Shown: one piece after another, positions 12,101 through 33,096 of the stretch
How positions within the stretch are numbered: the first letter of the stretch is position 1
Layout: each line of letters starts with the position of its first letter
NCBI GenBank assembly: GCA_009760855.2
Contig: WPIO01000005.1
Span: forward strand, 2,890,001 to 2,954,000
From: Cristatella mucedo
Lineage: Eukaryota; Bryozoa; Phylactolaemata; Cristatellidae
Length of the DNA: 64,000 bases
Direction: 5' to 3'
Notes under the pieces: model-generated
Seen by the model: only the letters and a program-made list of their open reading frames with translations
Databases searched by the model: none
What the model was told of the DNA's origin: nothing
Translations under genes and position numbers: made by a program

Positions 12101-15100
12101 CAGCAGTTGGGCCACTAATTAAGGAAGCGACACTAGACCAAGACAACTTGAGCAACTTCTTTCCGCTCTCCCTTCTCTAGTTCCTATCAAGAAGATACTT
12201 TGAGAGTTGTGGCAGACCAGCTGAACTATTATCCAGTAAGTTTCACTCTAGCTTTAGAGCTAATCACTCCATAAAGTCAGAATCACTTCAGGTATATGAT
12301 AAGTTTCTCATGAATGCAGACTTAGGTACATTCTCTCTGCTTGTTTTAGAGCAGCATTCTCAACCTGTGGGTCACAACCCCTTTGGGGTTCCAACGACCC
12401 TTTCACTGGGGTCGCCTAAGACCATCGAAAACATGCATTTCTACATTCAGCATAAAATAATTTTATGGTTTGGGGTCGCCACAACGTGATGAACTGTATT
12501 AAGGGGTCGCGGCATTAGGAAGGTTGAGAACCACTGTTTTAGAGAATCTTTCGACAGCGTTTGATGTTATTGATCGCCAAGTCCTCAAGCGCCTCTAATC
12601 TCGCCTGGACATCACAGGCACAGAACTGTAATGGTTTTGTGTCACTTAGCATGTGACTCCAGATCACTGTTGTAAATGGACTCTACCAGCATATCTCCTG
12701 TTGAATCAGCATATAATCTAGGTGACCAGTTCCGAAGTAACATTTCACTAGATCACCTCCAGAGACAAGTCTGTCTCCTTTCAGCCACATTACATAGCTA
12801 AAATTCGGGCTTGCTCACACAGGGATACTTGATCGAAATTGGTCCATGCATCTGTGACATCGCGTCTCGACTTCCGTGCTTACAGTTGAAGCAAAACTCT
12901 GCACCTAGGCTTGCCTGTCGTGAGCATCGTGAGCAGTTGCCACAGCACATCCCTTCTCACTGACCTGCATTGGCTCCCAATCAAGTAGCGTGTCGGCTAC
13001 AAGGTTTGGTCACTCACTTTTAGGTACCTTCATTCTCTAGCTCCCGTGTCCCTGTCAGAAAAACTTCCACGCCTGGCTAGGCAACGTACCACCCGTTTTC
13101 TGACTTTAATCGTTTAGCTGCACCTCGCATGAACATCAAATCCTTTGGAGACAGTGCCTGTAGTCGGTATGCTTCCAAAGCCTGGAACTCACTACTGACT
13201 GACGTAACGACACCCACCCGTTATCTTGGATTTTGATTTATTCATGCACTCTCATTTGTATGTGCGGGCAATGAAATATAACGGACGAAGCAAAAAAGAA
13301 CGAGTCGTGGCAGGCCAGCTGAACTCATATATCGAAACTTCAAACCTTGTTAGTAAGTTCCGGTCTGGCTTTAGGGCTAATCACTCCACAGTCAGCATTG
13401 CTTAGGGTGTACAACGACCTACTTAGGAATGCAGACATAGATAGACTGTCTCTGCTTGTTTTGCTCGATCTTTCGGCAGCTTTTGATGCCATCGATCACA
13501 AAGTTCTCTAGATCGCCTCTCATCTGGCCGGGGCATCACTGGCACTGCTCTGCAGTGGTTCAGGTCCTATCTCAGTGGGAGACTCCAGAGTATTGACGTG
13601 AATGGACAAAGATCATCTGAAGTACCTCTGAAATATAGAGTACCTCAGGGCTCAGTGCTAGGTCCGGTTCTTTTCACGGTTTATACTCTGCCTCTTGCTG
13701 ATGTGATTGCCAAGCACAATCTAGGCTTTCACTTCTATGCGGATGACACTCAGTTGTACCTTTGCTTTGATCCCTCCCAGCCTTCGAGCACCTAAAATTC
13801 TCTAAACTCACTAGATGCATGCATTGATGACATCCGCACATGGATGGCAGCTAATTTTCTAAAACTTAACGATGATAAAACTAACTTACTAGTTATGGGC
13901 AAACCCAGTGCGATCCAGAGATTGGACAGGCTGACTCTCAAAATTGGCTCTGCCAGCATATCTCCTGTTGAATCAGCTCGAAATCTAGGTGTCATATTCC
14001 AAAGCGACCTCTCGTTAGACGACCACATCAGCTCCACAGTCAAATCCGCCTATTTTCAGCTTCATAACATTGCTAAAATTTGGGCTTGTTTAGATAAGGA
14101 TACCACGTCCAAGTTGGTCCATGCATTCGTGACATCGCGTCTCGACTTCTGCAACTCACTGCTTACTGGCCTACCAGCATGTGCGATCAGGCGATTGCAG
14201 CTGGTGCAAAACTCGGCAGCTAGGCTTGTCTGTCGTGAGCGTCGCAGTTGCCACATTACTCCACTTCTTGCCGACCTGCACTGGTTACCAGTCAAGCAAC
14301 GGATTGACTTCAAGGTTTTGTCGCTCACTTTTAGGTCCCTTCATTCTATGGCACCAGCCTATCTCTCAGATATACTACCCCATCAGGCCAAGCATCGTAC
14401 CACCTGCTTTTCGGAATCCAACAGTCTAGAAATACCTTGTACAAACCTTAAATCCTTTGGAGACCGTGCATTTAGTTCATATGCTCCCAAAGCCTGGAAC
14501 TCCCTCCCGACCTGCGTCAGAAAATCCCCTGACCTGACCACATTTAAAAGGAACCTAAAAACACCTATTTAGGACAGCATTTAGTGGGTCCCTGTGATTC
14601 GTCCTTCATGTGCTTATGCGTGCTGACATTGTGCATGCTGCCACTAACACATTTGCATGCTGACCCTGTGCATGGCACCCCTAACCATATTATTCATTTC
14701 GTTTGTTTTTCACGCATGATTTTACTTACCATTCAATTGCATTTCACTTTACAGCAAATGTAAAGCGCCTAGAGAGAGATTAAGTTCTCTGAGAGCGCTT
14801 TATCAAGTGAATTATTATTATTACTATTATTATTATTACCAACTGATATCACAACATCCCTGACTTAATGAAATTTAGAAAGAACCAGAGAGCTCATCTG
14901 CCCAACACACAATTTGCTGGCTCAGTGGATCGTGCTTTTTTGCAGCAATTGTACAGCGCCTAGAAAGAGATTTGAGTTTTCCGAGGGCGTTTTATCAAAT
15001 GTATTATTATTATTATTTATGAACTGACTTCTGTGCATGTATATACTACATCCTGCACTATACAGCATAATGAACTGTCAGGCATAAGTTTCACTAGACC

Positions 15101-32171: not shown

Positions 32172-33096
32172 CAGTGGTTCTCTACCTTCCTAATTCCACT
32201 ACCCTTTAATACAGTTACTCATGTTGTGGCGACCCCAACCATAAAATTGTGTGCAAAATGTGGAAATGCATGTTTTCCGACGGTCTTAGGCGACCCCTGC
32301 GAAAGGGTCGTTCGACCCCAAAAGGGGTCGCGACCAGCATGTTGATGTAACCGGGTTCCTGGGGTCAGAGGCTAATTCCCGCCAAACCCCGCCATCCTAC
32401 GGCCACGCTGCCGCTCGCCACGCCGCCGAGCTAGGGTAAGACGAGCGGCCGTCAGGTTAAACATCTTTATAATAACGCATACGCCAACAACAACAGGGGA
32501 ACTAAACAAGTCTACAGGGAGGATCCTATACATTATACACTATGGGAGCGCAAGATGACGCAGCAAGCGCGAACAAACGTGTTAGTTGGGGTCAGTCGGC
32601 TTCCGCAGTCCTGTCATTGTACCGACTCCGAGTCCAACAGTACGAGCGTACGCCGTCCAAAACCCGGCTTGCTGAGTAACTGCTGGCTAGTCCGAGACGA
32701 CAACTACCACAGTCATAAGCTTTCACCGAAAGACGCAAACACACGGGGGGGGGTCACGAACACGCTACACGGGGAACGCGGTATAAACAAGTCAACAACG
32801 AGCGAACTATGCAGCTCTACTCTGGCCTTGGGTACTCGTTCCCTTGCGTGCGTGGCAGCATCGCCGGAGCACGCCTGCACGAATCCATATGCATAACTCG
32901 GCGAGACCGGGAGCCTCCAACACCACGACTTACTTGGCCAACTTCCCGTACCCATGAGCCCCGGTGACCTCACAGCACCGCATACATCCGGCCATGCCGT
33001 AGGGTCCGACCCCGGTCTAACCGGTGACCCTAACCCTCACTATGGCCGTCCGGTCCCAGCCAACCGAACCCAGCCTGGGTACATTGAGAACCGCTG
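32172..33096. mobile_element. SPIN-like hAT MITE (copy 2), split by an insertion
   Basis: Ends CAGTGGTTCTCTACC and TTGAGAACCGCTG, flanked by 8-bp duplications ATCTAGAG (32164-32171) and ATCTTGAG (33097-33104, one change). The SPIN-like body (GTTGTGGCGACCCCAACCAT, then GGTCTTAGGCGACCCCTGCG and AAAGGGGTCGCGACC) runs to 32345. It resumes at 33084 after a 738-bp insertion. MITE sequence alone is about 185 bp, as in copy 1. Confidence 0.85.
32346..33083 (+). mobile_element. 738-bp TG...CA element inside the MITE (LTR-like copy 2)
   Basis: Starts TGTAACCGGGTTCCTGGGGT and ends CCCAGCCTGGGTACA, bounded by TTGA on both sides (32342-32345, 33084-33087), a 4-bp target duplication. TG...CA ends plus a 4-bp duplication fit a solo LTR of a Ty3-type or similar element. 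The first roughly 325 bp repeat at 30116. No gag or pol coding sequence. Confidence 0.7.

Follow-up and report, generated by a model that had tools for sequence, protein, structure and literature searches.

SPIN (SPACE INVADERS) elements are hAT transposons of tetrapods and Rhodnius, and represent a textbook case of transposons crossing animal phyla. SPIN hAT transposons were reportedly treated by Pace in 2008 and by Gilbert in 2010 and 2012. Lymnaea is also a SPIN host among invertebrates. The Buster branch of the hAT superfamily produces target site duplications of the form nnnTAnnn, and what we take to be the SPIN motif consists of CAG[C/T]GGTTCTCAACCT inverted repeats together with TA-centred 8-bp duplications. 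SPIN is reported in Rhodnius (PMC11614815), and Biomphalaria glabrata is stated to contain about 1000 copies of a SPIN-like hAT family whose identity to SPIN is significant, in an assembly whose DNA transposons are not recent and include no intact transposase (PMC5440852).

The window (the whole stretch of 64,000 nt that was analysed, G000:C550:2890001-2954000) derives from assembly G000 of Cristatella mucedo, which comprises 572 Mb in 688 contigs. It contains a short element at 12352-12536 that is very probably a SPIN MITE, a label given by its structure and by a match to mouse DNA. The features of the window are as follows.

12352-12536, forward strand: non-autonomous element (MITE) of the 187-nt type, very probably SPIN, 185 nt here; 91.7% identical to the consensus of the copies over consensus positions 7-187
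12344-12351, no strand: left copy of the target site duplication TTTTAGAG; fits the nnnTAnnn pattern of other copies
12537-12544, no strand: right copy of the target site duplication TTTTAGAG
12352-12366, forward strand: 5' terminal inverted repeat, diverged from the consensus CAGCGGTTCTCAACCT
12521-12536, forward strand: 3' terminal inverted repeat AGGTTGAGAACCACTG
12307-12343, forward strand: LINE sequence left of the insertion (aligned part); the joined flanks align with an uninterrupted paralogue
12545-12600, forward strand: LINE sequence right of the insertion (aligned part); the joined flanks align with the same paralogue
13401-13792, forward strand: LINE paralogue that lacks the insertion; the homologous empty site is at 13459-13466 and the RVT_1 match at 13487-13792
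32172-32345, reverse strand: second MITE of the same family; consensus positions 10-187, with the first nine consensus bases unmatched; 91.6% identity over 178 columns

The initial annotation had placed a SPIN-like hAT MITE, bounded by a perfect 8-bp duplication, at 12344-12544, and this is what is found: an element of 185 nt with the termini CAGCATTCTCAACCT...AGGTTGAGAACCACTG, flanked on both sides by TTTTAGAG, with all eight positions of the two octamers identical. The duplication reads TTT-TA-GAG, which is the nnnTAnnn form. A perfect 10-nt core is common to both inverted ends, and the K2P distance of this copy to the consensus is 0.086 or 0.111, depending on the alignment used. With at most 3 mismatches allowed, the window has two occurrences of the subterminal 20-mer GGGGTCGCCTAAGACCATCG, whereas 100 shuffles give a mean of 0.00; the second occurrence belongs to another copy, at 32172-32345. 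The position of the element inside a LINE, which had also been claimed, is borne out by the flanks. When the element and one copy of the duplication are removed by script, the joined flanks (12307-12351 and 12545-12600) align with 13422-13524 with 79 identical bases in 103 columns, 2 of which are gap columns. This uninterrupted paralogue is located about 1 kb downstream of the element, and its frame at 13487-13792 scores 36.4 bits against RVT_1, a reverse transcriptase domain. The octamer of the paralogue at 13459-13466 is TTTTGCTC, where the target has TTTTAGAG, indicating that the empty site is homologous, not identical.

When the window copy is used as a query in a DNA search of the assembly, 2178 first-look candidates are obtained, and all 40 of those scored match. 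They are 86-90% identical to the window copy (itself aside) and are distributed over 33 contigs, one of which is 24.8 Mb long. Their consensus is 186 nt long (187 nt when the first C is counted), and its termini are inverted repeats of about 16 bp of the SPIN type given above. A 29-nt 3'-end pattern is found at 851 places in the genome and a 30-nt 5' pattern at 637 places, both at up to 2 mismatches and with 0 for the reversed controls. These are lower bounds, because diverged copies fall outside this mismatch limit, and the genome-wide count proposed in the initial annotation is thus at least 851 matching 3' ends. A second sample of 40 3' ends (the first unused places among 100 listed, all without mismatch) consists of 29 full-length copies, 6 copies cut at the 5' side and 5 copies with longer interiors. 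The flanking octamers agree at 7 or all 8 positions in 20 of the 29 full-length copies, as compared to 12 of 812 cross-copy pairings in the control; the duplication is perfect in 10 copies, and the octamers are alike at fewer than 7 positions in the other 9. Of the 20 matching left octamers, 16 have T at position 4 and 19 have A at position 5. The TA-centred 8-bp duplications of the copies fit the hAT superfamily in its Buster-branch form.

The divergence of the 29 full-length copies was measured on their first 154 nt, because this sample had been chosen for a perfect 29-nt 3' end. The mean K2P distance to the consensus is 0.096 (0.090 at non-CpG sites), with a range of 0.047-0.161. In the full-length alignment (n = 30, the window copy included), the distance averages 0.081 to the consensus and 0.149 between pairs, a ratio of 1.8 that is close to the factor of two of a star. 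The 40 first-scored copies are nearer to the consensus (mean K2P 0.064), because they were picked for likeness. With the copies 8-10% from the consensus and a near-star topology, the family appears from its sequences to result from one old burst. An assumed neutral rate of 1-3 x 10^-9 substitutions per site and year would give this burst in Cristatella mucedo an age of about 30-90 My. For elements of this kind, reported transfers among animals are placed at about 45 to 15 My (PMC3621081).

To the family also belong longer derivatives. A copy with a long interior (L078) yields 43 candidates as a query, 40 of which were scored, and this search led to the source element. Thirteen of 15 loci around longer copies contain both ends or parts of them, and two (L095 and L108) contain the 3' end only; the element lengths among these 15 loci include 286, 322, 325, 331, 419, 472, 478 and 498 nt, and the 472-nt copy (L101) carries extra DNA inside its 3' part. 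Among 12 further loci, six are two-ended, with lengths of 443 (L132), 553 (L131), 572 (L137), 642 (L133), 919 (L142) and 1123 nt (L135), one (L141) contains parts of both ends, one (L139) the 5' end only and one (L140) neither end as judged by the consensus, and three (L134, L136 and L138) extend far into the interior. The two-ended copies thus form a graded internal-deletion series from 187 to 1123 nt. At L134, consensus positions 54-93 and the 3' end (107-187) bracket about 2.9 kb, and the element is about 2954 nt long if its first 53 nt, which lie beyond the retrieved stretch, are counted. The interiors common to L134, L136 and L138 are 82-85% identical; L136 and L138 begin inside the interior of L134, and within the retrieved stretches have 3' ends only. 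In the 187-nt type, the 5' end is represented by about 93 nt and the 3' end by 81 nt, and longer types retain a maximum of about 415 nt on the 3' side; BLAST detects no counterpart of consensus positions 94-106 of the 187-nt type in these longer copies. Because the MITEs keep the end sequences of the relics, they are regarded as internal deletions of the relic element.

Five SPIN-type loci bear transposase sequence, and all four of those retrieved in part or whole are broken. The longest open piece used, a 192-aa fragment (L136:687-1262), finds as SPIN-type loci itself, C676, C111, C658 and a 63-aa fragment at C332:4204514; its identity to these other four is 58-80% in the best pieces (67% for C111), and internal stops are present in three of the four. 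With a 75-aa piece from the C-terminal part of L140 as query, C658 (the piece itself), C676, C111, C133 and the deleted copy on C5 are found, all other matches being at most 53% identical. Among the matches to the transposase fragments no intact SPIN transposase is seen, from which genome-wide absence does not follow. The search for a full-length transposase source, which the initial annotation had suggested, therefore succeeded for degenerate parents and an element of about 2.95 kb, and failed for an intact transposase. The consensus, the longer interiors and the relic frames presumably resemble rodent SPIN and SPIN transposase. Five further loci, G000:C653:8165245-8165808 among them, match the SPIN transposase fragment at 27-38%; some of these relatives lie in frames of more than 240 codons and are perhaps another Buster-type hAT family of the host.

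One C-terminal transposase fragment matches only PF05699 (hAT dimerisation domain), and weakly (12.5 bits, E 0.13, below the cut-off of 21.4); seven other transposase fragments do not match this domain. The C-terminal piece also has one weak match (E 0.58) that overlaps a PF05699 match at C44:7070650-7070826. A PDB search with the SPIN transposase fragments gives no meaningful relative. The source was also sought through PF05699, for which 138 matches are obtained when 150 of 766 candidates are scored. None of the 36 loci examined among these 138 (8 of a young hAT family and 28 others, with about 1.0 kb at the 3' side and 0.3 kb at the 5' side of each) has SPIN ends, and one 17-nt match, in L128 (E 0.052), is regarded as chance.

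The CAG..CTG ends and 8-bp duplications are common to related hAT elements, and the comparison was made with mouse DNA, not with a SPIN-labelled sequence. Both points would suit a different, merely SPIN-like hAT family of the host that has only terminal motifs in common with SPIN. This is very unlikely, because noncoding subterminal DNA on both sides of the element matches two pieces of mouse DNA, which we take to be SPIN although the published passages do not name them so. On the 3' side, a mouse genomic stretch printed in a knockout study (PMC8376875) matches consensus positions 107-187 with 67 of 80 aligned bases identical (81 columns, 1 gap). The alignment reaches the exact 3' end of the element, CACTG, and scores 52, as compared to at most 19 in 2000 shuffles of the consensus. 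On the 5' side, a primer for mouse Kcnq1ot1 (PMC6221546) is identical to 18 of 18 consecutive consensus bases in the subterminal block and scores 18, as compared to at most 12 in 2000 shuffles; in both comparisons the shuffles preserved base content only. The likeness thus extends beyond a few terminal bases, the limit at which the initial annotation would have given up the assignment: the family is similar through the whole 187 nt, and the mouse match covers 81 columns. The inverted repeats, the TA-centred 8-bp duplication, the internal deletions of an approximately 3-kb transposase element and the mouse match together fit SPIN membership, as far as sequence can indicate.

The presence of the element in both the host and mouse, and nothing more that was found, agrees with vertical inheritance from their common ancestor. 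This explanation is extremely unlikely: the copies have drifted 8-10% within the host genome since the burst, and noncoding DNA would not be kept at 83% identity, the value for the short mouse stretch, over a split of more than 500 My. Because the match is too strong for noncoding DNA from the common ancestor of two phyla, horizontal transfer is the preferred reading, and SPIN would have reached very distant animals in this way long ago. Noncoding DNA that drifts 8-10% within one host genome and is yet mouse-like suggests a transfer somewhere on the path between the phyla; the age, route and direction of this transfer are matters that we infer. Scans of other collections with exact or short patterns could miss diverged copies: exact SPIN patterns give 0 matches in viral contigs and in genome contigs, and the transposase fragments give 1 and 71 pattern matches in viral contigs and 28 in genome contigs, none of which is confirmed by tblastn.

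The genome contains a young hAT family (L004-L011) of about 3.2 kb with the ends TAGGGCTGTACCGG..., represented by 55 domain matches with the same 76.8-bit score. Of the eight loci examined, seven contain a stop-to-stop frame of 635-642 codons and show 99.0-99.6% identity over about 3.1-3.2 kb, and the family is perhaps still active. Its recent age and long open frames (about 640 aa) would make it a candidate for having moved the MITEs in place of a SPIN transposase. This possibility is likewise slight in the extreme, because the ends of the young family, as seen at three loci, are unlike SPIN ends, all eight loci examined lack a SPIN match, the MITEs are far more diverged than this family, and the MITEs have ends and interiors in common with the SPIN relics. 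It is the relic transposase that would have moved the MITEs.

The host itself was examined through contig C688 (21,008 nt), which carries mitochondrial genes. COX1 (C688:15441-16991, reverse strand) has conserved residues, compared by eye, that need AGR as Ser and ATA as Met, indicating code 5. Pfam detects nad5, nad4, cob, nad3, cox1, atp6, cox3 and cox2, and an antiporter-type frame at the place of nad2; nad1, nad4L and nad6 are assigned by eye, the nad6 frame being without a Pfam match, and Rfam places the large rRNA on the opposite strand. The gene order includes nad1-nad6-cob-nad4L-nad4-nad5, from which the orders of insects and heterobranch snails differ. This block belongs to the published lophotrochozoan mitochondrial cluster (PMC5162086). 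From code 5 and this block, the host is likely to be a lophotrochozoan and not Rhodnius, Lymnaea or Biomphalaria, in agreement with the 'invertebrate-type genome' of the initial annotation. On the same contig (L014, L015), three identical copies of a 1.8-2.1 kb repeat, one of them inverted, bracket the nad5-nad1 block. The 1.8-kb repeat copies on either side of the block are in inverted orientation, and an inversion of the block would place rrnL in front, as published; two isomers formed by recombination, or a misassembly, are possible. Elsewhere in the assembly, a diverged partial COX1 copy, probably nuclear, is open for 313 codons under the mitochondrial code (L013, G000:C166:4375626-4376390). 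L130 (G000:C111:22857240) contains two partial matches to 18S rRNA that point in opposite directions, and an 18S-end pattern occurs at only two places in the genome (up to 2 mismatches), so that the rDNA array may be absent from the assembly.

SPIN is best known from tetrapods, as contamination of the assembly by vertebrate DNA, with SPIN copies foreign to the host, would have it. This explanation, named in the initial annotation as a threat to its claim, has practically no probability despite a turtle with 385 SPIN elements (PMC4054807), because the 40 scored matches lie on 33 contigs including the one of 24.8 Mb, the window copy is inserted in a native LINE with a paralogue 1 kb away, a LINE frame that is similar by eye adjoins the SPIN relic in L140, and the mitochondrial contig reads with code 5.

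In the explanation preferred here, horizontal transfer followed by a single burst, a transposase-bearing SPIN element of about 3 kb, a member of the hAT superfamily, would have entered the germ line of the host. Transposase would have been made for a limited time and would have mobilised hundreds or more of short internally deleted derivatives. Cut-and-paste insertion at a TA-centred site, with the cut staggered by 8 bp, would have produced the TTTTAGAG duplication inside the LINE. The source copies would have decayed afterwards, leaving a dead family with no working SPIN copy. SPIN in this genome is thus apparently an old, high-copy, dead invasion.

The family itself is already known to be horizontally transferred, and Cristatella mucedo is probably a new host for it. 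No invertebrate SPIN host beyond Rhodnius and Biomphalaria was met in the passages that the literature search covered, the key SPIN papers being outside its reach. The fuller claim, that SPIN invaded a lophotrochozoan lineage outside the heterobranch snails, a SPIN host not recorded before, and left datable parent relics, is favoured with some reserve. If it is true, the range of SPIN in spiralian animals is wider than blood-feeding bugs and parasite-carrying snails, and other transfer routes come into question. Near-full-length relics, deletion derivatives and a near-star burst would make it possible to date the invasion and to find its place on the SPIN tree, and a further host tests whether aquatic spiralians are donors, recipients or bystanders.

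The family resembles SPIN of tetrapods and Rhodnius in its ends, in its TA-centred 8-bp duplications, in its short internally deleted copies and in the mouse match, and differs in its probably lophotrochozoan host, in the 187-nt type with several longer derivatives and in that no intact transposase is seen. With the SPIN-like hAT family of Biomphalaria it shares an invertebrate host, a copy number of the same order, old age and the lack of any intact transposase seen. The two, compared by description and not by sequence, differ in that the host studied here keeps nad1-nad6-cob-nad4L-nad4-nad5, whereas heterobranch snails are not known to do so. OC1 (OposCharlie1; PMC3621081), compared by description, is likewise a horizontally transferred hAT family whose copies have a star topology, but it is a separate family.
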